Position numbers and translations under genes: made by a program. The notes beneath the pieces are model-generated. The model made no database searches. It saw only the letters and a program-made list of their open reading frames with translations, and was not told the DNA's origin. This document shows positions 5,012-19,994 of a stretch of 22,473 bases of DNA, one piece after another. Origin of the DNA: a virus. Position 1 is the stretch's first letter, and each line of letters begins with the position of its first letter. The DNA lies in IMG/VR virus record IMGVR_UViG_3300008259_000295, positions 1-22,473 of that record; one strand, written 5' to 3'.

Positions 5012-5035
5012 GCTCAAAATTTATATAGATTGAGG

Positions 5036-5047: not shown

Positions 5048-5182
5048 ATGGCACGCTGGACGGGAACATTGTGGGAACTATTTACAGATGTAGCACAGGT
5101 GTTTGAGCATGTTCATTCATATGATGGTGCAATAGTATCTGTAGGTGGAGCAATTGCTACATTGGACGGCGGTGAAGCATGA
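5048..5182 (+). CDS. 44-aa small protein heading cassette A
   Basis: A short reading frame, MARWTGTLWELF...LDGGEA, fills the only otherwise empty stretch between the fibre blocks. Its TGA overlaps the next ATG as ATGA, the coupling typical of adjacent phage genes. The -10 box at 5036 is placed for leaderless translation from this ATG. In cassette B the gene before the Mtd_N-type fibre ends in the same way (…GCATGAGCG), though that gene is a 419-aa fibre. The predicted product is amphipathic at the N-terminus with a small glycine/alanine-rich end. No family recognised. It could be a remnant of a longer fibre gene. Confidence 0.5.
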   Translation: MARWTGTLWELFTDVAQVFEHVHSYDGAIVSVGGAIATLDGGEA

Positions 5183-5802
5183 GCGTATATACTAGAATTA
5201 AATTAAGAAGAGATATAGCTTCTGATTGGACTGCTAATAACCCCACCCTTTTAGCAGGCGAAGTTGGAATTGATACAACCAATAATAAGATTAAGATTGG
5301 AACAGGATCAACTCCATGGAATTCTCTTGCGTATGCCACATTAACCCCAACTGAAATTAACGCCCTAATTACAGGGCTACAGGGACAAATTGATTCCCTA
5401 GCATCAAATTTAAATAACACATTAGATGACTATGTGCCAATCGGAGATGTAGCACAGGCGGACGGAGTAGCATCTCTTGACTCAACTGGCAAGGTGCCAG
5501 ATACTCAAATTTCTTCAACTATAGCAAGAACTACAGATGTATCAACAGCAATATCTAATTTAGTTGATTCTTCCCCAGCAACACTAAATACTTTAAATGA
5601 GTTAGCAGCCGCCTTAAACGACGACTCTAACTTTGCAGGAACAGTTACTACAGCTCTTTCAAATAAGGCTCCTATAGCCTCTCCTGCCCTTACAGGAGTG
5701 CCTACAGCACCTACGGCAGCGGCGGGAACAAATACAACACAAATAGCCACCACAGCTTATGTACAAGACTCTTTGGCCATGGCAATGGCATTAGCCTTAT
5801 AA
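5179..5802 (+). CDS. Tail fibre with major-tropism-determinant-like N-terminal domain
   Basis: A 207-aa fibre protein. Residues about 1-52 (RIKLRRDIASDW, PTLLAGEVGIDT, KIKIGTGSTPWNSLAY) match the N-terminal domain pattern of major tropism determinant and many phage fibres (Mtd_N-like). Residues about 60-80 form a short helical linker. The shaft module shared with two other genes occupies about 81-163, with a roughly 14-residue insert. The C-terminus has the fibre motif ALTGVPTAPTA and then TTQIATTAYVQ, ending in a Met/Ala/Leu-rich tail. No variable C-type lectin domain is present, so any receptor-binding part must come from partner proteins encoded downstream. Paralogue of the N-terminal part of the gene at 13718. 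ATGA overlap with the 44-aa gene. Confidence 0.8.
   Translation: MSVYTRIKLRRDIASDWTANNPTLLAGEVGIDTTNNKIKIGTGSTPWNSLAYATLTPTEINALITGLQGQIDSLASNLNNTLDDYVPIGDVAQADGVASLDSTGKVPDTQISSTIARTTDVSTAISNLVDSSPATLNTLNELAAALNDDSNFAGTVTTALSNKAPIASPALTGVPTAPTAAAGTNTTQIATTAYVQDSLAMAMALAL
5419..5667 (+). repeat. Fibre shaft module, copy 2 of 3
   Basis: Related to 2061-2267 and 13212-13418 (DDYVPIGDVAQADGVASLD, LNTLNELAAAL, VTTALSNK). It differs from the others by an insertion of about 14 residues (TTDVSTAISNLV) before the LNTLNEL motif. Confidence 0.8.
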
Positions 5803-5820
5803 GCCTCTAAATGGTAAAAT
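5792..5820 (+). promoter_or_regulatory. Possible promoter inside cassette A (TAGCCT-17-TAAAAT)
   Basis: TAAAAT at 5815-5820 lies after the stop of the preceding gene and before AGGAG at 5826-5830. The -35 candidate TAGCCT at 5792-5797 matches TTGACA at only three positions. It would give a leader of about 10 nt carrying the ribosome site. Confidence 0.3.
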
Positions 5821-5836
5821 TTGTTAGGAGATAAAT

Positions 5837-6253
5837 ATGTCAGCAGTACAATTTGATTTAACCAACTTCAACTCAGTAATTCAGGCGAAGATGAATCAAC
5901 TGCATTCTACTACTTCCGCCAATGATATGATTCTTATCTTAAAGGCGCTAGAATCGGCATATAGTACAATTTTAAATGGTACTGCAATTAACACTGCAAA
6001 TGCTATTACAAATATCGGTGATACTAAAGTAGCAGCAGTAAATACCGCAGGAACTACACAAGTAAATGCAGTAAATACAGCGGGAACCACACAGGTTGGC
6101 CTAGTAAATACAGCTGGAACAACTGGCGTATCAAATATTAATACAAATAAAACAACAGCGCTGACAGAAATAGATGTGGCAAAAACTCAAGCAGTCGCAT
6201 TAGTTACAAGCTCAGCTGGCGGAACAAATCCGTTCTTGTTGATGGGAGCATAA
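5837..6253 (+). CDS. Small helical-repeat tail fibre component
   Basis: A 138-aa protein with a good ribosome site (AGGAG at 5826-5830). The N-terminal half (about 1-60) is predicted helical (FNSVIQAKMNQL, MILILKALESAYS). Residues 67-99 are three tandem 11-residue repeats of the form (A/L)VNTAGTT(Q/G)V(N/G/S), continuing in degenerate form to about 120 (NINTNKTTALT, EIDVAKTQAVA); 11-residue periodicity suits a right-handed coiled coil. The C-terminus NPFLLMGA parallels the GIFMLMGV end of the cassette B protein at 13718, which is in the equivalent place. Codons for the terminal MGA (ATG GGA G) also supply the ribosome site of the next gene. Probably a fibre connector; inferred. Confidence 0.65.
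   Translation: MSAVQFDLTNFNSVIQAKMNQLHSTTSANDMILILKALESAYSTILNGTAINTANAITNIGDTKVAAVNTAGTTQVNAVNTAGTTQVGLVNTAGTTGVSNINTNKTTALTEIDVAKTQAVALVTSSAGGTNPFLLMGA
6035..6133 (+). repeat. Tandem 33-bp repeat, three units
   Basis: Units at 6035-6067, 6068-6100 and 6101-6133, each encoding 11 residues around VNTAGTT. Units differ mainly at third codon positions, so the protein pattern appears to be under selection. Confidence 0.85.
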
Positions 6254-6256
6254 TAA

Positions 6257-7438
6257 ATGGCAACAGAGTATAAAATTTTAGGGCAGGTTCAAGCAGCAGT
6301 AGCACCAGCTCAAGAAAACATCAATCTTTTTCCAGATCCAAACCATGAAAGGTATACATCTTCTACAAGTTTTAATCCACACGATGGTCAGGCATCTGTT
6401 GCAACAGATGGTGCCCTTAATAGTATTTGGGTTTGGAACCCTTCAAGCCATAACACTTCACATGCTTATCAACACTGGCCACTAAATTCAAATTCTCATT
6501 CTGGATCACAAACATCTGGAAGAACTGGATACGTAAGATTTGAATCTCATCAGAATACTGGAGGTAGCCACAGTCAAGGAGTGGAACACGCAAGATCTTG
6601 GTATTTAGATCCAGCAAAAACTGGCTCTTTGATTGCAGGAAAAACTTATACAATTAATTTATGGGCTCATGCACATTCAGATTCACATAACTCTCATGCT
6701 CAACATGGTCAAAATTCTTTACAATTTTGGGATGGAACAGCATGGAATCCAATTGTCGCTGGTTTTGCAAGCCAAACAATGAGTCATTTAAATAACGTAG
6801 ACAATCATCATGGTGGAATTTATCAAATACAAGAAGATGAAAATGGAAATAGAGCTAGCTGGTCTGGTGGATGGCGTAGATGGTATAAGACATTTACTGC
6901 TACAGCAAATTCTAAATTTCAAATGCGTGTTAATTTAGGAACACATAACTCTGACGTTTGGCAAAGACTATACGTAGATAACGTTTATGTTGCAGAAGGA
7001 GCTATTCCAAAAGCTCTTATCCCAGCAAAGGCTCCAGATGGAACCAGTGGAAACCCACTAGCAATTCATACACAACCATTTACAACAAGGTCTGAAGGAT
7101 GGTCAGGAACTGCTTATCAATCTGCAACAACAAGAAAATTTACTGGAGAATGGCAAACAATTTATACTGTTCCAGATTTAGTTGGTGCAAGTGCCGTGTG
7201 TTCAACAATAACTATTACAAATACAGCAAGCACTACAAATACATATAGAATAGCAGTTCAAAAATTTGGAGAAGTATTAACTCACAAGCATATTCTTGCA
7301 TTTGATCATAATCTAGCAGCACAATCTATGGAAACCTTAACTCTTGGATTAACCCTTGGTAGACAAGACAAAGTGCTAGTACAATCAGATTCTGATAGAA
7401 TGTCATTTTCATTATTTGGATCGGAGAATACTCTATAA
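6257..7438 (+). CDS. His-rich carbohydrate-binding-like tail protein (cassette A)
   Basis: A 393-aa predicted receptor-binding protein. After the N-terminal KILGQV segment, residues about 22-255 resemble a carbohydrate-binding jelly-roll of the CBM4/9 type (INLFPDPNHERY, GKTYTINLWAHAH, WYKTFTATANSKFQMRVNLG, RLYVDNVYVAEGA). The second half (about 265-393) is a conserved C-terminal domain (FTTRSEGWSGTAYQS, WQTIYTVPD, HILAFDH, DKVLVQSD, FSLFGSE). The first domain is strikingly rich in histidine, about 17 His in residues 30-185, with the cluster H138-x-H140-H144-H147-H150 and another HH at 184-185. The cassette B paralogue at 14406 keeps a His cluster in the same place. Sugar binding is inferred from fold pattern; metal binding is a possibility. 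The GGGAG ribosome site lies in the previous gene's last codons. Confidence 0.75.
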   Translation: MATEYKILGQVQAAVAPAQENINLFPDPNHERYTSSTSFNPHDGQASVATDGALNSIWVWNPSSHNTSHAYQHWPLNSNSHSGSQTSGRTGYVRFESHQNTGGSHSQGVEHARSWYLDPAKTGSLIAGKTYTINLWAHAHSDSHNSHAQHGQNSLQFWDGTAWNPIVAGFASQTMSHLNNVDNHHGGIYQIQEDENGNRASWSGGWRRWYKTFTATANSKFQMRVNLGTHNSDVWQRLYVDNVYVAEGAIPKALIPAKAPDGTSGNPLAIHTQPFTTRSEGWSGTAYQSATTRKFTGEWQTIYTVPDLVGASAVCSTITITNTASTTNTYRIAVQKFGEVLTHKHILAFDHNLAAQSMETLTLGLTLGRQDKVLVQSDSDRMSFSLFGSENTL

Positions 7439-8076
7439 TGACAAGAAGAGTTGTCGGCGGAGTTTCTGGTGCTTCTAGTGTTGTAACTCAAAATTACTCA
7501 TCCTATGTTCTTTTGGCAGAAACATCTATGTCTGGTGGCACAAACTCTATAAGTGGAATGGCAAATCCAACCATGATAGATGGAACAACCGAGCTTGATT
7601 TTAATAATATCCCACAAACATATCGTGATCTTAGAATTGTTTTTGATAATATGGGACACAACACTAGTAATACTTCTGGATATAGAATTATGTTAACTTT
7701 AAACGGAGATACTACAAACAATAGATATTATAGTAGATCTGGAGTATCGGCAACAGGATCATCAAACTGGAACGCTGATAATACAACCTATTTATATTAT
7801 GGATATGTTTATAGGCCAGAAAATGTAACGTGGACTGGTACTGGAGAAATTATTATTCCAGGATATTCAACAATTAGAGGTGGCTGGAACAACAGAGCAT
7901 TCTATGGTTGGTGGTACCATCTTAGTCAGAATGCATATCAGGTGCCATATGTCTTTAACTATTATAATACTGCAGATGCAGATAAAGCAATTACTAGAAT
8001 TACAATAAGAATGGATGGAAATCCAGGATTTAGAGCTCGTTCTAAAATTAGCCTTTATGGAATAGGTACTGTATAA
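7438..8076 (+). CDS. 'YGI' domain tail protein (cassette A)
   Basis: A 212-aa protein. The N-terminus (GGVSGASSVVTQNYSSYVLLAET) is shared almost intact with the cassette B protein at 15510. The remainder carries the window's recurrent adhesin domain: DFNNIPQTYRDLRIVF at about residues 54-69, GEIIIPGYST near 135-144 and the terminal ISLYGIGTV. Relative to the proteins at 3757 and 4266 it has a roughly 40-residue N-terminal extension, probably for joining a neighbour. The ATG overlaps the preceding stop (TAATG), and GGAG lies about 11 nt upstream. Its stop codon lies inside the -10 box of the next gene. No enzyme motif. Host-surface recognition is inferred from paralogy and gene order. Confidence 0.7.
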   Translation: MTRRVVGGVSGASSVVTQNYSSYVLLAETSMSGGTNSISGMANPTMIDGTTELDFNNIPQTYRDLRIVFDNMGHNTSNTSGYRIMLTLNGDTTNNRYYSRSGVSATGSSNWNADNTTYLYYGYVYRPENVTWTGTGEIIIPGYSTIRGGWNNRAFYGWWYHLSQNAYQVPYVFNYYNTADADKAITRITIRMDGNPGFRARSKISLYGIGTV

Positions 8077-8091
8077 TACAGTAAACGGAGG
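8072..8091 (+). promoter_or_regulatory. -10 box and strong ribosome site before the LamG-like gene (cassette A)
   Basis: TATAAT at 8072-8077 overlaps the preceding stop and is followed by AAACGGAGG, with GGAGG at 8087-8091, 5 nt before the ATG at 8097. The cassette B paralogue has the same TATAAT...AAACGGAGGAAAA...ATGCCA order at 16163-16187. The candidate -35 TAGCCT (8049-8054) is weak. Confidence 0.45.
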
Positions 8092-8096
8092 AAAAC

Positions 8097-9536
8097 ATGC
8101 CATCAACACATCATCTTTATGAAAGATACGGATATCTTAGCCCATCAGAAAGTGGAGAAATTTTATATGCTCCAGTCAAAAACGGATTGGGTGTTCAGGT
8201 AAACCAAGGAACAACAAATCAGGTCTATAGCTTTGACGCAACAGCAGACTATGCCACTTTTAATTTAACTGGTTTAACTGGATACTACGACCCATATTTT
8301 GGTATGATTGGCGTTGGATGTCCAAGATATACAATTAATGGCACAAGTCCAAATCCAACAATTAAATTTCCTTCCGCAGATTATTTTCAATCTGGATCAG
8401 ATACATATAAGACTGGTCAGCTAGCTATTTGGAGTGAATACCCATTACAAATGAGATTGGATATTCAATTACAGAATGATTCAAATACACAGATCGGTGG
8501 AGTTGATAGTTCTTCAGTAATAACACTGGTTCCTTATAAGTGGAACGATATTGTTGTTACAACAACAGCTAACTCAACTAAATTTTTATTAACTTTAAAT
8601 GTAGTAAATACTTCTTCCGCTGATTATGGTAAAAAGTTTTGGGTAGACAATATTCAAGTAGAAAACTTTAGGTATCCAACATCTCCATACAATGGAGTTA
8701 CCAGAGTAGCTGGAGAATGTTCATTCTCAGTTCCAAACTGGGGTGCAGATTATACAGTAACTGGTTGGACTAAAATTGGACCACAATGTAGCACAGCTGC
8801 AGGCGGAACACATTCATTCTTTACTCTTTATAAAACCAACACATCTTATGCAACAATGAGGTACCAAGAGGGATCAACAAGAGTTAATGCGTTTAAAGAC
8901 GATACTGATCCTAATACCGATCTTTCTATATCTAATACAGATTATAATCCAGGAGATCTAGTGTTCTTTGCTCTTGTGCATAATGCAAACAATTTAACAG
9001 TTTATACTGCAAAATCTGGTGGAGCTATAACAACAGCAACCGCTAACACGGATTGGGAAGGATTTGATAAAATTTATATTGGTTCAGATCCAGTAAATTC
9101 AAATTTTGCAAATTCACCAATTGAGCAATTTTTATATTGGGATGAAGCTTTAACTCAATCTGAAATTGAAACGGTATTTAATTCAGCAAATGCTTATGAT
9201 TTTACATCAGATAAAAGAATTATTTTGTCTTTTTCAACACCACTGACATATGGAACATCCAAAGCCTTATCTACAAGTTCAACGGGGTTCTTTAGATATC
9301 TTGATAGAACAGCATCCCTAGATCTAGTTCCTCTTGGAACTTCAGCTGGAACTATTTCAACTACAACTGGATTTAGCTCAGCAACACATATTGCTTATGG
9401 CGCAGATGTTGAGAAACTGGCTAAAGATATGGTTGTTACAAGCGGAACAAATTTATCTAATGCTATTGTATATAGGGTTTTGGGACTAAAAAATAGCCAT
9501 GGAGTAGGCGAAGTTGCCTACCTAATTAAGTCATAG
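8097..9536 (+). CDS. LamG/lectin-like tail adhesin (cassette A)
   Basis: A 479-aa predicted adhesin with a strong GGAGG site. Residues about 1-45 are an N-terminal segment (YERYGYLSPSESG). About 46-195 look like a jelly-roll carbohydrate-binding domain (ATADYATFNLTGLTGYYD, TYKTGQLAIWSE, LQMRLDIQLQ, KKFWVDNIQVEN). About 205-355 match a concanavalin A/LamG-like lectin domain (YTVTGWTKIGPQ, FFTLYKTNTSYATMRY, DKIYIGSDPVNSNFANSPI, EQFLYWDEALTQSEIETVFN). The C-terminal 110 residues are a further domain shared with the paralogue at 16185. LamG-type domains bind glycans or act as binding tips in many phage tails; the exact ligand cannot be read here. No catalytic residues were recognised. Confidence 0.78.
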   Translation: MPSTHHLYERYGYLSPSESGEILYAPVKNGLGVQVNQGTTNQVYSFDATADYATFNLTGLTGYYDPYFGMIGVGCPRYTINGTSPNPTIKFPSADYFQSGSDTYKTGQLAIWSEYPLQMRLDIQLQNDSNTQIGGVDSSSVITLVPYKWNDIVVTTTANSTKFLLTLNVVNTSSADYGKKFWVDNIQVENFRYPTSPYNGVTRVAGECSFSVPNWGADYTVTGWTKIGPQCSTAAGGTHSFFTLYKTNTSYATMRYQEGSTRVNAFKDDTDPNTDLSISNTDYNPGDLVFFALVHNANNLTVYTAKSGGAITTATANTDWEGFDKIYIGSDPVNSNFANSPIEQFLYWDEALTQSEIETVFNSANAYDFTSDKRIILSFSTPLTYGTSKALSTSSTGFFRYLDRTASLDLVPLGTSAGTISTTTGFSSATHIAYGADVEKLAKDMVVTSGTNLSNAIVYRVLGLKNSHGVGEVAYLIKS

Positions 9537-9544
9537 GAGATAAA

Positions 9545-9748
9545 ATGACAGTACAATATATTGGATCATTAGACAATAAAGAAGTTATGAGAGTAGGATT
9601 AGGTGAAACTCGTATAGTCTTATCTGATTCCGAAGAGGTAAGAGCCTTCCTTGCCGCTGGCAATGAAATTACTCCAATTGAAATAGGTCCAGAAGACGCT
9701 GGAACCCCATTTGAAAGAACCTTTATTCCAGAAGGTGAAAATATTTAA
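9545..9748 (+). CDS. Small acidic protein closing cassette A
   Basis: A 67-aa protein preceded by AGGAGA that overlaps the upstream TAG. It aligns with the 62-aa protein at 17627: both have a DN(K/H)E turn, then a DS or D-x-PEV motif (SDSEEVRAFLAAGNEI here, EDPEVVAWLISENEI there) and a glycine/proline-rich acidic end. Position directly after the lectin-like gene in both cassettes suggests a dedicated partner, perhaps an assembly chaperone or small tip subunit. No named family recognised. Confidence 0.6.
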   Translation: MTVQYIGSLDNKEVMRVGLGETRIVLSDSEEVRAFLAAGNEITPIEIGPEDAGTPFERTFIPEGENI

Positions 9749-9836
9749 TTTTAAAGCTATAGACTTTATGCTTTAAAAATGGTATTATATACATATATAC
9801 AATATGCTGTATATATTCTTATAGAAAAGATTACTT
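9749..9836 (+). promoter_or_regulatory. Regulatory region before the halogenase operon: promoter-like boxes and two inverted repeats
   Basis: This AT-rich gap has a perfect 9-bp inverted repeat (TTTTAAAGC at 9749-9757, GCTTTAAAA at 9770-9778, 12-nt loop) and a perfect 8-bp one (ATATATAC at 9793-9800, GTATATAT at 9809-9816, 8-nt loop). A promoter candidate is TAGACT at 9760-9765, 17 bp from TATTAT at 9783-9788. Neither repeat is followed by a T-run, so operator-type dyads are more likely than terminators. The ribosome site before the GTG at 9837 is poor (AGAAAAGA). Confidence 0.45.
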
Positions 9837-11423
9837 GTGAGCGAAATTAATAGCATTGCTATCGTAGGCGGTGGTTCATCTGGCTGGATGACAGCAGCTT
9901 CACTTATTCATGCCTTTCCAAATAGAACAATTACCTTAATTGAAAGTCCAAATATTTCTACTGTAGGAGTAGGAGAAAGCACTCAGGGCGCAGTTACTCA
10001 ATGGGTAAAAAGCTTAGGCATTGATCATAAAGATTTTATGGCATATACAGATGCTTCTTATAAAATGAGTATTAAATTTACAGATTTTCATAAAAAAGGC
10101 GATGGCGGATTCCATTATCCATTTGGCAAGGTGTATTTGGGAGATACTCAATATGGTGCCAGAGAATGGTATATGAAAAAAGCTAAATATCCAGAAACTC
10201 CAGTTCAAGATTATTGCAATTCATTTTTCTCACAGATGGCTTTAGTTAATAATAATAAGATTAATACAAATAAATATGGAGTATTTGAAGAGTTTAGTTT
10301 TTATGACGCATCGGCATTTCATTTTGATGCCACCAAGTTCGGTTTGTGGCTAAAAGATAGATATGCAATGCCAAGAGGCGTTAAGCATATTACTAAAGAA
10401 GTTTCAGAAATTAAAACAGATGAAAACGGAATTTCTTGTCTGGTGCTAGACGATGGAACTGAATTTAATGCCGATCTATATATTGATTGTACTGGGTTTA
10501 AATCAATGCTTTTAGAAGAGACTTTAGGAATTGAATTTGATGATGAGTCTGATAAATTGCCATGCAATAGAGCTTGGGCAGCTCAAATACCTTATGTAGA
10601 TAAGCATAAAGAGATTGAAAATTTTACAAATTGTACAGCACTTGGTTATGGCTGGGTTTGGAATATTCCACTATATTCTAGAATTGGAACTGGATACGTA
10701 TATTCAGATAAGTTTACAACTCCAGAAGAAGCTTTGGAAGAATTTAAACAACATTTAAAAGAAAAGAAAGATCCTATTTACGCACCAGATAGAGATTTTA
10801 GTAATGTACAGTTTAAAGACATTAAAATTAAAACTGGAATTCATAAAAAACTATGGGAAAAGAATGTCGTGGCCCTAGGTCTTTCCGCAGGATTTATTGA
10901 GCCTCTAGAAAGTAATGGCCTTTATACAGTACATGAATTTTTAAGAGTTTTAATTAAAGCATTAGATAAAGGATTCTCTACACAATTTGATAAAGATTCT
11001 TATACCCATGAATGTAGAACCATATTTTATGGATTCATGCACTTTGTGCAGATGCATTATACATTAAGTCGCAGAGACGATACTGATTTTTGGAAGTACA
11101 TGACTTCTCAAAATATAAATCTTGAAAAAGAAACTGGTTATAATCAGGTTTCTTCTACAAGAAGGTCTGTTGAAACTACTTATGAAACTACCAGTGGAAT
11201 ACATTGTATAGCAACTGGACACAACAATTTTACATATGGAAATTATGGTAAAGAATTGTTCCAATCACAAACTGGACAAGATGTGGATTTAATTACTGAA
11301 GGGTTTATTTTTAAGTCTAATAAGTCAAAAAAGAAATGGGAAGAAGAAGCAGAGGCCTCTAAAAATCATTATGATTATTTAAGAGAAAACTTTCATTCCG
11401 AGGCTTTAAATGAAGAAGTTTAA
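9837..11423 (+). CDS. Flavin-dependent tryptophan-halogenase-family protein
   Basis: A 528-aa FAD-dependent halogenase-type enzyme. These use reduced FAD, O2 and halide to form HOX, which travels to a catalytic lysine and halogenates an electron-rich substrate. The FAD-binding GxGxxG is at residues 11-16, right after the start, which fixes the GTG start. Also seen: GVGEST (44-49), the family lysine in SYKMSIKF (K76, equivalent to PrnA K79), DCTGF (217-221), the flavin halogenase signature WVWNIP (273-278) and EPLESNG (355-361), whose E358 aligns with PrnA E346. In PrnA/RebH the residue after ES is Thr, which helps bind chloride; here it is Asn360. Related genes occur in marine cyanophages, one of which (VirX1) prefers iodide and non-tryptophan substrates, so substrate and halide are open. 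First gene of a three-gene cassette between fibre cassettes. Confidence 0.88.
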   Translation: MSEINSIAIVGGGSSGWMTAASLIHAFPNRTITLIESPNISTVGVGESTQGAVTQWVKSLGIDHKDFMAYTDASYKMSIKFTDFHKKGDGGFHYPFGKVYLGDTQYGAREWYMKKAKYPETPVQDYCNSFFSQMALVNNNKINTNKYGVFEEFSFYDASAFHFDATKFGLWLKDRYAMPRGVKHITKEVSEIKTDENGISCLVLDDGTEFNADLYIDCTGFKSMLLEETLGIEFDDESDKLPCNRAWAAQIPYVDKHKEIENFTNCTALGYGWVWNIPLYSRIGTGYVYSDKFTTPEEALEEFKQHLKEKKDPIYAPDRDFSNVQFKDIKIKTGIHKKLWEKNVVALGLSAGFIEPLESNGLYTVHEFLRVLIKALDKGFSTQFDKDSYTHECRTIFYGFMHFVQMHYTLSRRDDTDFWKYMTSQNINLEKETGYNQVSSTRRSVETTYETTSGIHCIATGHNNFTYGNYGKELFQSQTGQDVDLITEGFIFKSNKSKKKWEEEAEASKNHYDYLRENFHSEALNEEV

Positions 11424-12132
11424 TTCTAAAAAAATTAAATTTGCTTCAAGTGGATTTTCTCCAGGAAGTTTATTAGAGCATTCTGATGTTCCATCTCCAG
11501 CAAAAAATTTTGTTCCAGAATGGTATAGATCTACTAAAAATATAAAAAGAGATAGTGCTGAGCTAGCACAAGTTAAAAATATAAAAGATTGCGTACCTTT
11601 TGCTGATGCGCTCTTATCTGGATATATTTGGACAACCCCATGTGATATATATGTAGAAAGAGTTCCAGATAGCAAAGCTCCTAGAATTAATTTTACTGAA
11701 CATTTAAGCGTAATGGATGTCAGAGAATCGAGTAGCGCTGGATTAATGAAAGTTCCAGACGGATGCTACGAAACACATTTTGTTTGGAAACATCCAATGC
11801 ATATTTCTACACCTAAAGGTTACAGCATTCTTGTGACACATCCTTTAAATAGACATGATTTACCGTTTATATCATTATCAGGAATCGTAGACTGTGATTC
11901 AAATCCTTTTCGACCAGGGAATTATCCATTTTTTATAAAGAAAAATTTTGATGGGCTAATACCAAAAGGAACTCCAGCACTTCAAATTATTCCAATTAAA
12001 AGAGAAGATTGGGTTTCAGAAAGAGATCAGTCTATGATTGGACCAGAATGGTTAAAAAATAGTTATGAGGTTGGATCTGTAAATGTGGGCTGGTACAAGA
12101 AAAATCATTGGAATAGAAAATCCTACAACTAA
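11410..12132 (+). CDS. DUF6065-like protein encoded with the halogenase
   Basis: A 240-aa soluble protein overlapping the halogenase gene by 14 bp, with GAGG about 7 nt before the ATG; they must be co-translated. Visible features are PSPAKNFVPEWYRS (28-41), CVPFADALLSGYIW (61-74), a CDIYVER strand, ETHFVWKHPMHIST and a run SGIVDCDSNPFRPGNYPFF. This pattern (F-P-W, C-P-F-D-A, G-Y) reminds me of the DUF6065 family found in marine phages, sometimes near a halogenase; I cannot verify that here. No transmembrane segment. It may modify or deliver the halogenase substrate, but that is only a guess from the operon. Its stop overlaps the next start. Confidence 0.6.
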   Translation: MKKFNSKKIKFASSGFSPGSLLEHSDVPSPAKNFVPEWYRSTKNIKRDSAELAQVKNIKDCVPFADALLSGYIWTTPCDIYVERVPDSKAPRINFTEHLSVMDVRESSSAGLMKVPDGCYETHFVWKHPMHISTPKGYSILVTHPLNRHDLPFISLSGIVDCDSNPFRPGNYPFFIKKNFDGLIPKGTPALQIIPIKREDWVSERDQSMIGPEWLKNSYEVGSVNVGWYKKNHWNRKSYN

Positions 12133-12425
12133 TGCTTAAGCCTAAAGATATAGTTCAAGTAACTAAGCAGCTTGGCCATAAAGAATACTGGAATAAAACT
12201 AATACCATAGAGTTTTGGGCATTTTCTACAAAGCTAATGATCATTTTTCCAGGACTAATTCTAGGCATACAGTTTTGGTGGCTTTATATTTTTGCTTTGG
12301 TTTCTAGTCTAGCTTTGATTTTAACCTCAACTGTTAAAACCTTACCAACAATCATATACTTTAATCTTGGCTGGACCATATTGGCCTCAGCCGCAATCGC
12401 CAAACACTTCGGCCTTATCCTATAA
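12132..12425 (+). CDS. Small membrane protein of the halogenase cassette
   Basis: A 97-aa protein with a charged N-terminus (MLKPKDIVQVTKQLGHKEYW) followed by about three predicted membrane helices, near residues 28-47, 49-66 and 72-90. The ATG overlaps the preceding stop (TAATG) with no ribosome site, so translation is probably coupled to the 240-aa protein. No signal peptidase site or catalytic motif. Family not recognised. Being the only membrane protein in the window and sharing a transcript with the halogenase, it may anchor or transport that enzyme's substrate or product; this is inference. Confidence 0.65.
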   Translation: MLKPKDIVQVTKQLGHKEYWNKTNTIEFWAFSTKLMIIFPGLILGIQFWWLYIFALVSSLALILTSTVKTLPTIIYFNLGWTILASAAIAKHFGLIL

Positions 12426-12453
12426 TTAATTATAAGTAGTTACAGGGTATAAT
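12421..12453 (+). promoter_or_regulatory. Palindrome and leaderless-type promoter heading cassette B
   Basis: A perfect 14-bp palindrome TATAATTAATTATA (12421-12434) spans the stop of the membrane gene. A TATAAT -10 box (12448-12453) then lies 8 nt before the ATG at 12462. The palindrome covers the -35 position, so a binding protein there could control the promoter. No ribosome site lies between the -10 box and the ATG. Confidence 0.5.
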
Positions 12454-12461
12454 ATATCTAT

Positions 12462-13721
12462 ATGGCTACCCTATTTCCAACCTCTTTAGATGCTCTAGCT
12501 AATCCGCATTCTACTACCCCGCTTCATGCAGAAGGTGGACACGCACAGCAACATATTAATGCGAATGATGCCATTGAGGCATTGCAGTATAAAGTTGGTC
12601 AAGATAATTCAACAGTAGTAACATCTCATGATTATAAAATTGCACATCTTGAAGGGTTGGTAACTTCACAGGTTGCTGGAGCAAGATCATTATATGCGGA
12701 TGTAAGAAATCAAAGCGGATCTCCAATTCTTAAGGGATCTCCTGTTCGTATTGTTGGTACAGATGGAGCTTCTGGAAAAATATTAATAGATGTAGCAACT
12801 AATTTTAGCGAGTCTGGATCCTCAAAAACATTTGGCCTTACAACATCTGCAATAGCAAATAACTCAAACGGTCAAGTAATTACATTTGGTCTTCTTGAAG
12901 GTATTGATACAACAGGTGCAGTCGATGGAGATCCAGTATGGCTAGGAGTAAATGGAGCTAAGATATACGGTCTTGTCAACAAGCCATTTGCGCCAAGTCA
13001 TTTAGTGTATTTAGGAGCTGTAGCAAGAGGCGGTCAACAAAACACTGGATCAATTCAAGTAACAATTCAGAATGGATTTGAGCTAAGAGAATTACATGAT
13101 GTATCTGTAATGAATCCATCTACAGGCGACACAATTAGATATAATCAAACTACAGATTTATGGGAAAAGTATACATTAAATAATTTTGTAACTACAGATA
13201 ATTTAAGTAACACACTTGGAGACTATGTCCCAATTGGCGACGTTGGTCAGCCTGATGGCGTAGCGTCTCTGGATTCTTCTGGAAAAATTCCAGTGGCGCA
13301 ACTTGGAAATTTAATTGATGGTGCCCCAGCCGCCTTAGACACATTAAATGAACTAGCAGCAGCTTTAGCAGATGATGCTAATTATGCAACTACAATTACA
13401 AATGCCCTGTCTCTAAAAGCACCTTTAGCTAGCCCAACATTTACTGGAACGGTTGATTTTTCTTCAGCAACAGTTAATGGAGTTATTTCGACTGTTCAGC
13501 AGAATGGAACAGCCCTAACTAAAAGGCCAACTCTTAACTTTTTAGGCGGGGCTCTTGTCCAAGATGACTTGGTTAATAACCGAATAAATGTTACAATTAC
13601 AGGAGGAACACCAGAGCTAATCGATGGCGGCAACTTTGACTCAGTGTCTCCATACGATGGTGGAGCGCCAGACGCAACAACATTCGAAAATACATTTGAC
13701 GCAGGAGAAATTGCAGCATGA
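12462..13721 (+). CDS. Tail fibre protein heading cassette B
   Basis: A 419-aa tail fibre. The N-terminus (FPTSLDALANP...HAQQHINANDAIEALQYKVG, about residues 5-47) is the attachment domain common to many phage fibres. About 78-215 is a beta-rich module seen in many phage tail proteins (SGSPILKGSPVRIVG, GLLEGIDTTGAVDGDPVWLG, GSIQVTIQNGFELRELHDV). The shaft module lies at about 251-319, followed by APLASPTFTGTVDF. The C-terminus (SVSPYDGGAPDATTF, DAGEIA) probably joins the next fibre. It starts without a ribosome site behind a well-placed -10 box. Its TGA overlaps the next ATG as ATGA, the same junction as between the 44-aa gene and the fibre in cassette A. Confidence 0.85.
   Translation: MATLFPTSLDALANPHSTTPLHAEGGHAQQHINANDAIEALQYKVGQDNSTVVTSHDYKIAHLEGLVTSQVAGARSLYADVRNQSGSPILKGSPVRIVGTDGASGKILIDVATNFSESGSSKTFGLTTSAIANNSNGQVITFGLLEGIDTTGAVDGDPVWLGVNGAKIYGLVNKPFAPSHLVYLGAVARGGQQNTGSIQVTIQNGFELRELHDVSVMNPSTGDTIRYNQTTDLWEKYTLNNFVTTDNLSNTLGDYVPIGDVGQPDGVASLDSSGKIPVAQLGNLIDGAPAALDTLNELAAALADDANYATTITNALSLKAPLASPTFTGTVDFSSATVNGVISTVQQNGTALTKRPTLNFLGGALVQDDLVNNRINVTITGGTPELIDGGNFDSVSPYDGGAPDATTFENTFDAGEIAA
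13212..13418 (+). repeat. Fibre shaft module, copy 3 of 3
   Basis: Same 69-residue length as copy 1 at 2061-2267 and nearly identical to it (DYVPIGDVGQPDGVASLD, LIDGAPAALDTLNELAAA). Copy 2 (5419-5667) is more diverged. Confidence 0.85.
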
Positions 13722-14404
13722 GCGTAAATTCAAGATTTCAAATTCGTAGAGGTACCGCAGCAGAGTGGAATGCATCAAATCCAACACTGGCGGCAGGTGA
13801 ATGGGGTTTTGAGAAAGATACTGGACGATTTAAGATCGGCAGAGGAACAATTGCTTGGACAGCCTTAGAATATGCTGGATTAACTCCAAACACAAATGAT
13901 ACATTTACAAATAAAACAATTAATCTTTCAGACAATACATTATCTGGAACAGTAGCTCAATTTAATACGGCCCTTTCAGACGATAACTTTGTAACTTTGA
14001 CTGGATCAGAGAATTTAACAAATAAGACTTTGACCAGCCCAACAATTTCAAATCCTACATTTACTGGACAGATGACTGGCCTAGAGCTAGCATTTGCCCA
14101 AAGCATAGTTTTTGAGGGTGCTACAGCAGACTCATATGAAATGACTTTGAGCGCTGGAGAGCCAACAGAGGATAGAGTAATTACCCTCCCAAATGCTACA
14201 GATACCTTAGTAGGTAGAAATACGCAAGATACACTAACAAATAAGAGCATTAGCGGCTCTACAAATACGCTAACAAATATTCCAAATAACGCCCTCACAA
14301 ACAGCTCTATCACAATAAATGGAACTGTAGTATCATTAGGTGGTACCACCGAAATAGCCACAGGCGGCGGTAAATCAGGAATATTTATGTTAATGGGAGT
14401 ATAA
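13718..14404 (+). CDS. Tail fibre with Mtd_N-like domain (cassette B)
   Basis: A 228-aa fibre. AGGAG at 13703-13707 precedes the start. Residues about 1-50 repeat the Mtd_N-like pattern (RFQIRRGTAAEW, PTLAAGEWGFEKD, FKIGRGTIAW). The shaft contains repeated TNKT/S motifs (NDTFTNKTINLSDN, LTNKTLTSPTISNPTFTG, LTNKSISGSTNTL), standard fibre repeats. The C-terminus is GIFMLMGV, matching the LMGA end of the cassette A protein at 5837; its last codons contain GGGAG, the ribosome site of the next gene. It appears to combine the roles of the two cassette A genes at 5179 and 5837 in one product, either fused here or split there. Confidence 0.8.
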   Translation: MSVNSRFQIRRGTAAEWNASNPTLAAGEWGFEKDTGRFKIGRGTIAWTALEYAGLTPNTNDTFTNKTINLSDNTLSGTVAQFNTALSDDNFVTLTGSENLTNKTLTSPTISNPTFTGQMTGLELAFAQSIVFEGATADSYEMTLSAGEPTEDRVITLPNATDTLVGRNTQDTLTNKSISGSTNTLTNIPNNALTNSSITINGTVVSLGGTTEIATGGGKSGIFMLMGV

Positions 14405-14405
14405 A

Positions 14406-15503
14406 ATGCCAGAGTATATTAAAATTTTAGGACAGGTTACAACATCAGCAGCTGGAACACTTCAGCAATTAAGTATGTTTCCAGATCCAAACTTTGAGTA
14501 CTACACAACTAATACAACCCATGTTAATCAAACAGCTCCTCAAAGCCCATTATTTGGTTTTCCAGTAAGCGGTGGAAACTCTGGAGTAAACGATAACTGT
14601 CAGATTACATATATTACTAGCGAACATGCACCTAATTCTGCAAATGCTACTGGCAGAACAAACTCAATGTACTTTACTAATCATAACAATCAATACCATC
14701 CAAGATGGTATATGAACTCAGCAACTAATTTAGATAGACCATTTTTAAAAAGCGGTCAAGTTTACACAATGTCTTTCTGGTCAAAGGTTACAGATGATTC
14801 AGGGCATGCAAATAATCACCATGGTCACGGCGGAATGCAATATTCAAGAGGAGTAAATAATTATGACATTATTCCTTATGGAGATAATTTTCCAAGCAGA
14901 GCTACAATTTCAAACGGATGGGTACTAAATGCAAATATGTATGATACCTGGAGACAATATTATACAACATTTACTGGAGAAGGCGGGTATTTTGATTTCA
15001 ATGTAAGAATTTGGAATCATAGCTTTAGCGGATGGGTAAGATGGTATTTAGATAATTTCCTTATTGTAGAAGGAGCAGTTCCAAGAGCACTTTTGCCAAC
15101 AAGACCATTAGATGGAGCTTCTGGAAATGCAAATGCTCTTTATACATCTCCATATACAACACGATCTGAGGGTTGGCAATCAACTGCTTATAGATCTCCT
15201 ACAATTAGAAGAGTAACAGGTTCATGGCAAACTCTTTATACTGTGCCTGATAATAGATCTGCAGTAGCATCTACATTGCATATTTCAAATTATGGAACTG
15301 CAAATGCAACTTATAGAGTTGCTGTACAAAAAGCTGGAGAAACTTTAAATTCACAACATATCCTAGCATTTGATCATCCAATTACACAAACTTCTAGCGA
15401 ATCCTTAAGTATAGGATTAACATTGGCCGCTGGAGATAAAATAATTGTTCAATCAGATGTTGATAAAATTACATTCCAGCTATTTGGATCAGAGACGGCT
15501 TAA
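14406..15503 (+). CDS. Carbohydrate-binding-like tail protein with His cluster (cassette B)
   Basis: A 365-aa paralogue of the protein at 6257. Shared features are KILGQV at the N-terminus, MFPDPNFEYY, SGQVYTMSFWSK, the His cluster (H134, H138, H139, H141), WRQYYTTFTG, WYLDNFLIVEGAVPRALLP, YTTRSEGWQSTAY, WQTLYTVPD, HILAFDHP and the end FQLFGSETA. The N-terminal jelly-roll (about 20-225) is 28 residues shorter overall and more diverged than the C-terminal domain (about 235-365), as expected when the outer domain sets specificity. CBM4/9-type carbohydrate binding is inferred from pattern. Confidence 0.75.
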   Translation: MPEYIKILGQVTTSAAGTLQQLSMFPDPNFEYYTTNTTHVNQTAPQSPLFGFPVSGGNSGVNDNCQITYITSEHAPNSANATGRTNSMYFTNHNNQYHPRWYMNSATNLDRPFLKSGQVYTMSFWSKVTDDSGHANNHHGHGGMQYSRGVNNYDIIPYGDNFPSRATISNGWVLNANMYDTWRQYYTTFTGEGGYFDFNVRIWNHSFSGWVRWYLDNFLIVEGAVPRALLPTRPLDGASGNANALYTSPYTTRSEGWQSTAYRSPTIRRVTGSWQTLYTVPDNRSAVASTLHISNYGTANATYRVAVQKAGETLNSQHILAFDHPITQTSSESLSIGLTLAAGDKIIVQSDVDKITFQLFGSETA

Positions 15504-15509
15504 TATAAA

Positions 15510-16154
15510 ATGACAATAAGAAAATCTGGTGGTGTTGCTGGAACAACAACTGTTGTAACTCAAAACTATTCATCGTATGTTCTTTTAGCCGAGACAAGTC
15601 CAGATTCAGGAACTACAAATGCTGTTAGCGGTATGAGTAATCCTCAAATGATTAATGGTACAGGTCAGATTACATTTTCTAACATTCCACAAACATATAG
15701 AGACTTAAAAATTCAATTTTCTTATATGTCACACAATGCTCAAAATGATAGCCAGTACAGAATTTCTTGGTGGTATAACAATGATACCAATGCATCCAGA
15801 TACTATTCTCGTGGAGGTACTCAAGCAACTGGAACCCCAGCACATAACGCAGATAACGCTGACAGACACTACTTTTTCTATAATTACAATCATTTAACAC
15901 GTAGAAATGATTGGCCTGGACAGGGAGAGATTATTATTCCAAACTATTCGTCTACCCTTACTACAAACTTTAGAAGCGCTTACGGAACATCCTGGAATAT
16001 GGTAAGCTTAAGCTATCCAACTCAATGGGGATTCCACTATTATAATAATGATGTAGTAAAATTACCAGTAACTCGCCTAGACTTTTCATGGGAAAGCGAT
16101 GTAAAATTCTGTGTTGGATCAAAAATAACCATTTATGGTATAGGCGCAAAATAA
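15510..16154 (+). CDS. 'YGI' domain tail protein (cassette B)
   Basis: A 214-aa paralogue of the protein at 7438. The N-terminal stretch TVVTQNYSSYVLLAETS is nearly the same. It keeps TFSNIPQTYRDLKIQF at about residues 54-69, RYYSRGGTQATG, GEIIIPNYSS near 137-146 and the terminal ITIYGIGAK. The middle differs, with more aromatic and charged residues (RHYFFYNYNHLTRRNDW). There is only a weak ribosome site, 6 nt after the preceding stop, so coupling is likely. Function as a binding-tip component is inferred. Confidence 0.7.
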   Translation: MTIRKSGGVAGTTTVVTQNYSSYVLLAETSPDSGTTNAVSGMSNPQMINGTGQITFSNIPQTYRDLKIQFSYMSHNAQNDSQYRISWWYNNDTNASRYYSRGGTQATGTPAHNADNADRHYFFYNYNHLTRRNDWPGQGEIIIPNYSSTLTTNFRSAYGTSWNMVSLSYPTQWGFHYYNNDVVKLPVTRLDFSWESDVKFCVGSKITIYGIGAK

Positions 16155-16162
16155 AATTAAGG

Positions 16163-16180
16163 TATAATATAAACGGAGGA
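16163..16180 (+). promoter_or_regulatory. -10 box and strong ribosome site before the LamG-like gene (cassette B)
   Basis: TATAAT at 16163-16168, then AAACGGAGGA with GGAGGA at 16175-16180, before the ATG at 16185. Same order and near-identical sequence as before the paralogue at 8097. No convincing -35 (ATAGGC at 17-bp spacing). Confidence 0.45.
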
Positions 16181-16184
16181 AAAA

Positions 16185-17618
16185 ATGCCAAGCACATATA
16201 ACGTCTTTGAAAGATACGGAACAGTCACCCCAGAACTAACAGGTAACCTTTGGTATGGAACCTGTAGGTATAATCTTTCCCCAGCCATATACCAATCTAC
16301 AACTAATACTATTTATAACGCTGACGCAACAGCTGATTACTCTACATTTTCTACAACAGGAATAACTGGATTTTTTGATGCACAAAATTATATGTACGGC
16401 GTTGGATCAGCAAGGTACATGCTTAATGGAGCATCTCCAACTCCGCTTGTTAAAATGCCAGGAGCAGCTTACTACAATACTAGTCAAGATACATATAAAA
16501 CTGGATCTGTAAGAATTTGGTCAGAGCATGCTCTTCAAATGAGATTAGATATTCAAATGTATGATGGCTCAGGTAATACTGTAGGCGGAACAGATAGCAC
16601 AACAGTTACTTTAACTCCAAATCAATGGAATACTCTACAGGTTGTTTCAAGCGTAAACTCTGTAGGATATTTATTAACTCTTAATGTTCTTAACTTTAAC
16701 TCAGCAACAGATACTGGAAAAATATTTTATTTAGATCAAGTTTCTGTAGAAAATTTAAGATATCATACAATTTTTCAAAATGCTGGTGCAAGATCTGCTG
16801 GACAAATAAAATATACAATTCCTAAAACTGGTCCAGACTATACCGCATTAATTTGGACAGTTATTGGTCCGCAATGTAGCTCAGCTGCTGGAGGAACACA
16901 TCCATTTTTCACTTTATATGATACATCAACATCTTATGCTACATTAAATTATCAAGAAGGATCTACAAAGTTGCAGGCATTTAAAGACGATACGGATCCA
17001 AATACAGATATTCAAATAAATGCTGTAAATTATAATCCAGGAGATGTAGTATTCGGAGCCCTTGTTAATGATGGATTAACTCTTACAATGTATGTCGCTA
17101 AGGCTGGAGACGTATCTCTTCAAACAACAAGTAGCGCAACAGAATTTGATACATTTGAGTACGTGTACCTTGGACAAGACCCATCAAATTCACGTTGGGC
17201 AAATTCAACAATTGAACAATTTTTGTTATATAATCGTGCTTTAACTCAAGCAGAAGTTTTAGCAATTTTCAATTCAGCAACACCGTTAGACTACACATCA
17301 GATAAAAGAATTATTTTTGCAGCTGCTACCCCAAGCACACTTGCAACATATAACGGTTTAGGTGTAGCTGGAACTGGTTCGTACAGAAATGAAGATATTA
17401 CAGTTTCTTTAGATATAGTTTCTGCTATTTCTTCAAATACAACTTATGGCCCAACTGGTTCATCTACACATATGTTTTATGGACAAGATGTTAAAAAACT
17501 TCAAGTTAATAATATAATTTCTACTGGGTCAAATGTAACAACATCAACATTATATAAGGTAGACAATATTTCGGATGCTCCTAATATAGGCCCGATAGCA
17601 TATGTATCTAAGATATAG
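16185..17618 (+). CDS. LamG/lectin-like tail adhesin (cassette B)
   Basis: A 477-aa paralogue of the adhesin at 8097, with the same domain order: N-terminal segment (FERYGTVTPELTG), jelly-roll (about 46-195: TYKTGSVRIWSEHALQMRLDI, FYLDQVSVENLRY), LamG-like domain (about 205-355: YTALIWTVIGPQC, FFTLYDTSTSYATLNYQEG, KDDTDPNTD, EYVYLGQDPSNSRWANSTI, EQFLLYNRALTQAEVLAIFN) and a C-terminal domain. The LamG core is the best conserved part between the two copies; N-terminal and C-terminal parts diverge more. A second adhesin of slightly different specificity on the same virion is the simplest reading. Confidence 0.78.
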   Translation: MPSTYNVFERYGTVTPELTGNLWYGTCRYNLSPAIYQSTTNTIYNADATADYSTFSTTGITGFFDAQNYMYGVGSARYMLNGASPTPLVKMPGAAYYNTSQDTYKTGSVRIWSEHALQMRLDIQMYDGSGNTVGGTDSTTVTLTPNQWNTLQVVSSVNSVGYLLTLNVLNFNSATDTGKIFYLDQVSVENLRYHTIFQNAGARSAGQIKYTIPKTGPDYTALIWTVIGPQCSSAAGGTHPFFTLYDTSTSYATLNYQEGSTKLQAFKDDTDPNTDIQINAVNYNPGDVVFGALVNDGLTLTMYVAKAGDVSLQTTSSATEFDTFEYVYLGQDPSNSRWANSTIEQFLLYNRALTQAEVLAIFNSATPLDYTSDKRIIFAAATPSTLATYNGLGVAGTGSYRNEDITVSLDIVSAISSNTTYGPTGSSTHMFYGQDVKKLQVNNIISTGSNVTTSTLYKVDNISDAPNIGPIAYVSKI

Positions 17619-17626
17619 GAGAAATA

Positions 17627-17815
17627 ATGAATATATTAAGCATGCATTATGATAACCACGAAAATACAATGGTTAAAATTAAATATGATAATCAGGCTGT
17701 TAGAGACTCTGTTCCTTTAGAAGATCCAGAGGTAGTGGCATGGTTAATATCTGAAAATGAAATTTTGGAATGCCCATACGGAGACTTTGAAACAAAAGGC
17801 GATCCTAACGCTTAA
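17627..17815 (+). CDS. Small acidic protein closing cassette B
   Basis: A 62-aa paralogue of the protein at 9545, with the same AGGAGA ribosome site overlapping the upstream TAG. Shared pattern: DNHE, then EDPEVVAWLISENEI and an acidic glycine/proline end. Its TAA lies within the -35 box of the next promoter. Possible fibre partner or chaperone; no family recognised. Confidence 0.58.
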   Translation: MNILSMHYDNHENTMVKIKYDNQAVRDSVPLEDPEVVAWLISENEILECPYGDFETKGDPNA

Positions 17816-17846: not shown

Positions 17847-19592
17847 ATGTCATATCAATTAAAAACCATAAAAGATTCACCTATAGGTTTTTGGACCTTG
17901 GATGAGTCTTCTGGCTCTATTGCATATGATAAATCTGGATGTAATAATCATGGGACTTATATAGCATCTCCCGCCTCAAATATGTTGCCTCTAGTTCCTG
18001 GCGGAATCTCTGGAACTAAAATAACTAATACGGCATACGCTACATTTCCAGTAACAAAAGATTTTTATTCTTCAACAGTCGGAGCGGGACTAGCAAACAA
18101 ATACACATCAGATAACGATTTTACTTTAGAGGTATGGGTAAATCAATCTATAGAGTCTAACAATGAAACTCCGCTATTTGCAGACACTACAAATAACATA
18201 GGTTTATATTGGCATAAAGGCGATATTGTATTTAAGGTATCAGCCACAGATTCTATTAGATACTGCATCCCATACAGCAAAAAGGTACTTCATCTTGTAG
18301 GAGTTTATTCTGTATCTGGAATATCTTTATATGTAGATTCAGCTCCAGTTGCCTCTAAGTCTTTATCTAATTTTAAATTCACAAATACTACAACCACATT
18401 TCAGACTGGTCCGACGGCAGATGCAGGAGATGCATTTATTGTAGATGCCCCAGCTATCTATAGATACAGCCTACCATCATCATCAATAAGAAGACACTAT
18501 TTATCTGGAAATGTAACAGTATCTCCAATACATGTTGTGTTCCCAGATCGTGGAACTTTATTTAGCGGGACAGACGCAAATATTAGAGCCCCATTCGATT
18601 ATTCATATCCAGTAAATAGGCCATGGACGGACTTTGTAGATGCCAATACATATTACGATGCTGGTAAAAAACATATTACCTTTTATCAGACAGAAACAGT
18701 TGAGGCTAAAAGCCTAGTCATAAATGACTACTTTTTAATTCCATCTCAAATAGGATTAACTACTTCTAAGGTTGAGTGGCGGAATGATCTGGGAATTACA
18801 GTAGAATCCAGCGTAGATGGAACTACATACCTACCTTGCGTAAATGGACAACCATTACCTCAATACAACAAAGACTCATTTAATTCTATTGGTAAGGTCT
18901 ATATTCGAATTACAATGTCTACGACAGATGCAAGTAAATTCTTGCCTAAGCTATCATTTTTCTGCATAACCTTCTATTCTGATAAAACCCTATATTCAGA
19001 TAATTCTGGGGATAAAATAACCTCAACAACAGATTATTATCTAGGATCATTAAATTATCCTATTCTATCTCGAAATTACATGAATGGAATTAGGGCTAAA
19101 AGCGGAGCTGGGTTTGACCTTGAAACCGCATCCTCTATAAAGTCTTTAGAAATGTTCTTTACACCCGCTACGTTGGCCGCTAACACCCTATTCTATGATT
19201 CTGGCAGTACAACCACCAGATTCGCCTGGAATGGCTCTGGAACCCTTTCTAAGGCCAATATAGACAAGGTATACATAAACGGGGTAGATGTATCGACTGC
19301 TACTAATATAACTAATTATTTCTTAGATGAAGAGCCTAGCCATGTCGTATTAATATTTACTGACCCAATTACAGGCACATTTAAATTCAATTATGAAACA
19401 TCTGGGGGGCCAAGTAACCTTTATAAGAACATAGCGCTATATCAGGATGAGCTTACAGCAGGTAAAGTTGAGACCCATTTTGAATTATATACAGGCAAGC
19501 CTGTTGAAACTATCACAGAATCTGCCATCACCCTGACAGAATTACCAGCCGTTTATTATAATAACGACTGGATCGTGTTACAATCTGTATAA
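17847..19592 (+). CDS. Large LamG-domain tail protein
   Basis: A 581-aa predicted structural protein. Residues about 10-215 form a LamG/concanavalin A-like domain (PIGFWTLDESSGSIAYDKSG, FTLEVWVNQS, LHLVGVYSVSGISLYVDSAPVA, AIYRYSLPSSSIRRHY). About 215-385 is a linker region of beta strands (KHITFYQTETVEAKSL, VEWRNDLGITVESSVDG, VYIRITMSTTDA). About 400-565 resembles a second LamG-like domain (DLETASSIKSLEMFF, HVVLIFTDPITGTFKF, NIALYQDELTAGKVETHF). It is not part of the duplicated cassettes and has its own promoter. LamG proteins next to head/tail genes are frequent minor tail proteins in phages of Gram-positive bacteria. Function as adhesion protein inferred; no enzyme motif. Confidence 0.72.
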   Translation: MSYQLKTIKDSPIGFWTLDESSGSIAYDKSGCNNHGTYIASPASNMLPLVPGGISGTKITNTAYATFPVTKDFYSSTVGAGLANKYTSDNDFTLEVWVNQSIESNNETPLFADTTNNIGLYWHKGDIVFKVSATDSIRYCIPYSKKVLHLVGVYSVSGISLYVDSAPVASKSLSNFKFTNTTTTFQTGPTADAGDAFIVDAPAIYRYSLPSSSIRRHYLSGNVTVSPIHVVFPDRGTLFSGTDANIRAPFDYSYPVNRPWTDFVDANTYYDAGKKHITFYQTETVEAKSLVINDYFLIPSQIGLTTSKVEWRNDLGITVESSVDGTTYLPCVNGQPLPQYNKDSFNSIGKVYIRITMSTTDASKFLPKLSFFCITFYSDKTLYSDNSGDKITSTTDYYLGSLNYPILSRNYMNGIRAKSGAGFDLETASSIKSLEMFFTPATLAANTLFYDSGSTTTRFAWNGSGTLSKANIDKVYINGVDVSTATNITNYFLDEEPSHVVLIFTDPITGTFKFNYETSGGPSNLYKNIALYQDELTAGKVETHFELYTGKPVETITESAITLTELPAVYYNNDWIVLQSV

Positions 19593-19655: not shown

Positions 19656-19994
19656 ATGGACACTGGAAAGATTAAATATTCATCACCTGAAGAAGAGACC
19701 CGCCTAGGAATTTATGTCTGGGAAATGCCAGATGGTCGCTGGATTGGCGACGACGATGGAAATTATCTTTCAGTAACATCCATGAAAAACAATAAAGCTA
19801 AGATCGATGCTTTGGCTAATACTGTAAGGTCCTATGGAATATATGAGGGATCCCCTAAATTCTTATCAGGACGTAGAAAAGTTGATGACGAAGAGTTTGA
19901 GCATCAGAAACAAAGACTTAATTGGGGACTAGTACCAGATCCTTTGGATATTGGAAACTACAAAGACGAAATGAAAAAAGCAGGTAAAAAATAA
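19656..19994 (+). CDS. Small conserved-looking protein before the portal gene
   Basis: A 112-aa charged, soluble protein. N-terminal half beta-like (IYVWEMPDGRWIGDDDGNYL, residues about 19-38), then a helical stretch (MKNNKAKIDALANTVRSYG) and a basic/acidic C-terminus ending in KKAGKK. The stop overlaps the portal start (TAATG), so the two are translationally coupled. I recognise no family. Position suggests a packaging or head-assembly accessory protein, but nothing in the sequence proves it. Confidence 0.6.
   Translation: MDTGKIKYSSPEEETRLGIYVWEMPDGRWIGDDDGNYLSVTSMKNNKAKIDALANTVRSYGIYEGSPKFLSGRRKVDDEEFEHQKQRLNWGLVPDPLDIGNYKDEMKKAGKK

Follow-up and report, generated by a model that had tools for sequence, protein, structure and literature searches.

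Organization of the Locus

The window, i.e., the entire stretch of viral DNA analyzed here (IMG/VR record IMGVR_UViG_3300008259_000295, positions 1 to 22,473), is a 22.5-kb fragment of a tailed phage with a G+C content of 36.9%. All features of the window described below lie on the plus strand. The portal protein (19994–21574), which served as the backbone anchor for presence/absence tests, is 55–59% identical to the portals of BillNye/LukeCage-type Streptomyces phages, and a LamG protein located downstream of the fibre slot (17847–19592) matched only Streptomyces phages in sequence searches. Judged by these matches, the fragment derives from a Streptomyces-BE-like actinophage, and its host is therefore probably an actinobacterium. 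The low G+C content would fit freshwater actinobacterial lineages, and the habitat is probably freshwater.

Three open reading frames, which encode a flavin-dependent halogenase (FDH; 9837–11423), a DUF6065-related protein (11410–12132), and a small membrane protein (MEM; 12132–12425), form an operon with a G+C content of 33.5%. The first two overlap by 14 nt and the last two by 1 nt. The operon is flanked by two fibre cassettes: the first (5179–9748) comprises genes 5179, 5837, 6257, 7438, 8097 (LamG), and 9545, and the second (12462–17815) comprises genes 12462, 13718, 14406, 15510, 16185, and 17627. The cassettes share fibre domains and contain paralogous pairs, with identities of 37% for 6257/14406, 49% for 7438/15510, and 49% for 8097/16185. 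The first-pass annotation, which had placed an overlapping three-gene operon between duplicated fibre cassettes, was thus correct on both counts.

The intergenic region upstream of the FDH gene (9749–9836) contains a perfect 9-nt dyad (9749–9757/9770–9778) and a −10-like box, GGTATTAT, at 9781–9788. A second such box, GGTATAAT (12446–12453), ends a few bases short of the following fibre gene (12462). The motif, GGTAWWAT, occurs 12 times in the window, as compared with 5.4 expected occurrences, and none of 100 shuffled sequences reached 12. Boxes were found just ahead of gene starts at 5034, 5813, 9781, 12446, 16161, 17833, and 19640, some of them only 6–8 nt from the start codon. They look like late promoters, and those near start codons might represent a possible late extended −10 promoter producing near-leaderless mRNAs. 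The earlier proposal of flanking regulatory regions with dyads therefore holds for the perfect dyad and for the boxes preceding the FDH gene and the next fibre gene, whereas the AT-rich dyads did not demonstrably exceed chance. The position itself is of the moron type, as had been suggested: the cassette is non-structural, is surrounded by structural genes, and has a promoter-like box of its own before the FDH gene.

The Flavin-Dependent Halogenase

The FDH gene starts with GTG and encodes 528 amino acids. The protein matched PF04820 (E = 2.8e-103; 346.7 bits against a cut-off of 21) and phrog_2928 (E = 4e-140), and its best match in the PDB was VirX1 (6qgm; E = 1e-99), aligned over residues 2–517. 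The FAD motif GxGxxG (VGGGSSG) and the WxWxIP motif (GWVWNIP) are both present and conserved in relatives, and an EPLES motif carries Glu358. The catalytic Lys and Glu align with those of VirX1 in the PrnA/VirX1 columns; K76 and E358 are invariant in 52 related phage FDHs and also in a set of 37 sequences. In comparison with the nearest relative, locus L007, the dN/dS ratio was 0.07. Based on the PF04820 and VirX1 matches, the invariant catalytic pair, and the low dN/dS, the FDH is very probably a functional enzyme, and the flavin site, whose integrity had been posed as a question earlier, appears intact. LodB/QhpG-type peptide-tryptophan monooxygenases were also considered and rejected, since the matches were weak and far under the cut-off.

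VirX1, the FDH of cyanophage Syn10, shares with the window enzyme a near full-length match, aligned catalytic residues, a location in a phage late region near structural genes, and a DUF6065-type gene overlapping the 3′ end of its own gene. It differs in sequence (~39% identity over the aligned part), in the host phylum, and in a locus rich in 2-oxoglutarate (2OG) oxygenases, and no MEM was detected near the VirX1 gene. A JmjC_2 protein (L086:14123–14833; E = 1e-16) is encoded downstream of the latter, together with several 2OG oxygenases. The classical tryptophan halogenases PrnA, RebH, PyrH, and Thal have the same FAD-binding and halogenation core as the window FDH, whereas their C-terminal part is unaligned and the window lacks pathway genes around the FDH gene. 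The alignments with most classical tryptophan halogenases stop near query residue 420, a comparison of alignment extent rather than of individual residues.

Phage halogenases have been recognized since cyanophage genomes began to appear, and VirX1 serves as a useful biocatalyst. FDHs in phages are already well known (PMC3037559, PMC2984593, PMC10452541). The putative freshwater lake actinophage DSL-LC01 carries a tryptophan 7-halogenase (PMC10611076); like the window phage, it is a putative actinophage with an FDH, and in the available part of that report only the FDH is remarked upon (PMC10611076). We found no reported natural substrate of phage halogenases. In the literature searched, with most subscription journals outside the search, we found no description of MEM or of an FDH–MEM pair, and none of DUF6065.

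The DUF6065-Related Protein

The second gene encodes a 240-aa protein that matched phrog_7084 (7e-33). The designation "DUF6065-like" given in the first-pass annotation holds only in the sense of a distant relationship: by itself, the window protein had no match to Pfam DUF6065 (PF19541) at 0.1 and did not reach the gathering score, whereas 23 of its 36 homologues touched PF19541 (best 6e-7) and sister genes reached it at 1e-34. Two of the 36 homologues also touched the dUTPase family PF00692 (E = 0.014). The dN/dS relative to L007 was 0.22.

The structural model (pLDDT 83.6; pTM 0.81) returned only dUTPases and dCTP deaminases as top rows in Foldseek (best E = 3e-5), and VIA gave a Z-score of 9.4 with an rmsd of 4.8 over 121 aligned residues. 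The protein is therefore predicted to belong to the dUTPase/dCTP deaminase fold, an assignment that would also provide a structural identity for DUF6065, whose Pfam entry has no assigned function. The segments GIVDtD and GTPixQ aligned by profile with dUTPase motifs III and IV (GVIDEDY and GDRIAQ), weakly (E = 1.2). Motif II (RSG) is not conserved; the corresponding stretch is THPxNR-like. The predicted fold is like that of the dUTPase/dCTP deaminase superfamily, whereas motif II and the N-terminal region are unlike it.

The Membrane Protein

MEM consists of 97 amino acids with three predicted membrane helices. Searches of Pfam, PHROGs, and NCBIfam returned no match, and the protein was found neither in 50,697 annotated phage records nor in the bacterial genomes of 84,980 species. 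It is, nevertheless, encoded by 353 stretches in viral contigs. An alignment of 45 MEM sequences contains 31 invariant residues, and the dN/dS relative to L007 was 0.015. When the 45 members were compared with Pfam at E-values up to 10, we obtained scattered chance-level matches and no consistent transporter family, and sequence comparison with solved structures yielded nothing useful.

The AlphaFold2 model (pLDDT 72.7) contains three helices of membrane length. In VIA, its top rows were SemiSWEET and the mitochondrial pyruvate carrier (MPC), with Z-scores up to 8.9, an rmsd of 2.4, and 76 aligned residues, a level that, according to the VIA warning, helical bundles reach through their common arrangement; the best Foldseek E-value was 0.62. 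These three-helix half-transporters are the best structural matches of the model, but a sequence-family match is absent and the model is weak. The likeness is weakly indicated and serves as a lead. The making or export of a halogenated compound, as proposed in the first-pass annotation, is one possible role, but MEM could equally import halide or a substrate.

Linkage of the Membrane Protein to the Halogenase

In a collection of 80 loci anchored on MEM, an FDH gene was located within 5 kb in 69 loci and was adjacent in 48. PF04820 was detected on 41 of 50 MEM contigs, as compared with 69 matches to the window FDH among 50,697 phage records. The adjacent pairs were mostly arranged as FDH>MEM (54), with three convergent, three MEM>FDH, and two divergent layouts. 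On the FDH tree (FastTree, with unsure deep joins), the MEM link requires at least 11 changes, implying that MEM has paired with different FDHs.

MEM could be an ordinary core gene that stands beside the FDH gene passively, and a portal-anchored collection was built to exclude this. It contained 71 loci in which the upstream flank of the portal was 8 kb or longer. MEM and FDH occurred together in 10, neither occurred in 61, and none had one gene alone, a result that led us to reject the core-gene explanation. After dereplication, which removes phage kinship only partly, five loci had both genes and 36 had neither (Fisher p = 1.3e-6). MEM is thus gained and lost together with the FDH and stays beside it across changes of gene order, strand, and FDH clade. 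The suspected membrane partner is a genuine one, given the perfect co-occurrence in the portal-anchored loci.

The dependency is one-sided. In 80 loci anchored on FDH, the surrounding 5 kb contained MEM in 10 cases, DUF6065-type genes in 11, and 2OG oxygenases in 37; most viral FDHs occur without MEM, which consequently is not required for viral FDH chemistry in general. Conversely, three MEM contigs of at least 36 kb showed no FDH gene (L010, L018, and L043), and these carried DUF6065-type genes beside MEM, together with a 2OG oxygenase in L043.

The three genes had been proposed as a linked set, and a neighborhood search had been suggested as a check. It revealed FDH and MEM as a tight pair; other viral FDHs usually lack both partners and are often near 2OG oxygenases. 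The three genes do not constitute a fixed unit: the DUF6065-type gene is an optional partner, missing from many FDH/MEM loci, and the exact order FDH–DUF6065–MEM was found in only four viruses, including the window.

Between the window and L007, dS was 1.2–1.4 for the FDH, DUF6065-like, and MEM genes and 0.4–0.65 for the genes encoding the portal, the LamG protein, and the fibres. This two- to threefold difference between the same two phages suggests that the block was exchanged as a unit.

Neighboring Genes in Other Phages

In other phages, DUF6065-type proteins neighbor FDHs, 2OG oxygenases, and carbamoyltransferases. Cyanophages other than Syn10 also have FDH-neighboring examples, which were found in S-CREM1 (in which the gene is annotated as "triphosphate nucleotidohydrolase"), S-RIM44, Sf-FR1, and Sf-FP1. 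In haloviruses and S-RIM4, the DUF6065-type gene lies near nucleotide-metabolism genes, such as thymidylate synthase in HRTV-2 and ribonucleotide reductase in S-RIM4, with no FDH in the stretch examined. Two loci (L044:6143–10002 and L035:4466–8340) contain a NodU-like carbamoyltransferase, a DUF6065 protein (PF19541; 1e-34), and a member of the "YWSPW" family between FDH and MEM; this last family (phrog_17480) is possibly a remote sister of DUF6065.

In phages of the window's own family that lack MEM, the corresponding slot often holds arrays of 2OG oxygenases that include two DUF6065-type genes. In L215, L241, L249, and L352–L397, 2OG-Fe(II) oxygenase-like genes, six to eight or more in tandem, surround one or two DUF6065-type genes, and these arrays occupy the position upstream of LamG/portal where other family members have FDH–MEM. 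None of the portal-anchored loci had both an FDH and a 2OG array, with few independent FDH cases among them, a pattern suggestive of mutual exclusion within the slot.

Possible Roles of the Operon

The recurrence of FDH plus MEM across many viruses suggests a real, previously undescribed viral halogenation module. Since the same slot is occupied by 2OG-oxygenase/DUF6065 arrays elsewhere in the family, both cassettes probably act in oxidative tailoring, with a molecule of the virion, the surface, or the host as the target. Our leading interpretation, which we hold tentatively at a little short of an even chance, is that the three genes constitute a mobile module for oxidative tailoring and halogenation in late infection, in which the FDH halogenates an aromatic target and MEM moves a small molecule. 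The FDH would use reduced flavin supplied by the host, and its aromatic target would not necessarily be free tryptophan. MEM would serve the FDH as a small half-transporter, importing or removing a small molecule, be it halide, substrate, or product; the DUF6065-type protein might bind or hydrolyze a nucleotide-like ligand or help to present the substrate. In a more specific version, which we regard as unlikely, MEM would be a dedicated transporter that handles either halide, in low-salt freshwater, or the substrate or product of the enzyme, and viruses would carry it with whichever halogenase they possess; the operon would then be a transport-coupled system with a dUTPase-fold accessory common to the VirX1 locus.

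The main rival is the post-translational modification of virion proteins, which we consider rather improbable. Here, the FDH would halogenate aromatic or other residues of fibres or adhesins, which the 2OG/JmjC enzymes of sister phages would hydroxylate, and MEM would be incidental or a membrane helper. The operon lies between fibre cassettes, a minority of FDH loci are near collagen-like or fibre genes, and several 2OG oxygenases accompany a JmjC_2 protein, of a class known to hydroxylate proteins, at the Syn10 VirX1 locus. VirX1 also forms a trimer, and its active site is large and open (PMC8407142). However, after the removal of portal divergence, the divergence of the LamG adhesin was independent of cassette type (permutation p = 0.99), and we rejected this adhesin as the FDH target; nor is a dedicated membrane protein obviously needed for such a modification, and no modified residue is known. 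Passive association, with MEM as a normal resident on the margin of a hot spot that receives FDH and other genes, is already disfavored and appears improbable. The slot between the fibre genes and the LamG–portal block is indeed variable and accepts alternative cassettes, and MEM adjoins non-FDH genes in L043 and L048, but MEM is absent from 61 of the 71 portal-anchored relatives, never occurs there without FDH, and remains adjacent to it through inversion and order change.

A role in nucleotide or DNA modification, with the dUTPase-fold protein handling a nucleotide and FDH, 2OG oxygenase, or carbamoyltransferase modifying bases, seems very improbable. The predicted fold, the carbamoyltransferase neighbors, and the proximity of DUF6065-type genes to thymidylate synthase and ribonucleotide reductase would agree with it, whereas the location among late structural genes, the non-conserved motif II, and the many FDH/MEM loci without a DUF6065-type gene argue against it. 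We also know of no halogenated DNA base. We give the least credence, if only slightly less, to a classical moron that 7-halogenates free tryptophan to feed a pyrrolnitrin-like antibiotic, as for the cyanophage prnA: although such a role has been proposed for cyanophages (PMC2984593, PMC9964418), no further pathway gene is present beside the FDH gene, and the PrnA/RebH-type alignment ends before the C-terminal part of those enzymes, while VirX1 aligns to residue 517.

MEM, gained and lost with the enzyme, and the dUTPase-fold neighbor common to the VirX1 locus offer concrete genetic handles on the role of phage halogenases. The number and arrangement of DUF6065-type genes vary among the related loci: in L057 (10413–13505, minus strand), such genes are situated on both sides of the FDH gene, and L187 contains up to four of them in a single locus.
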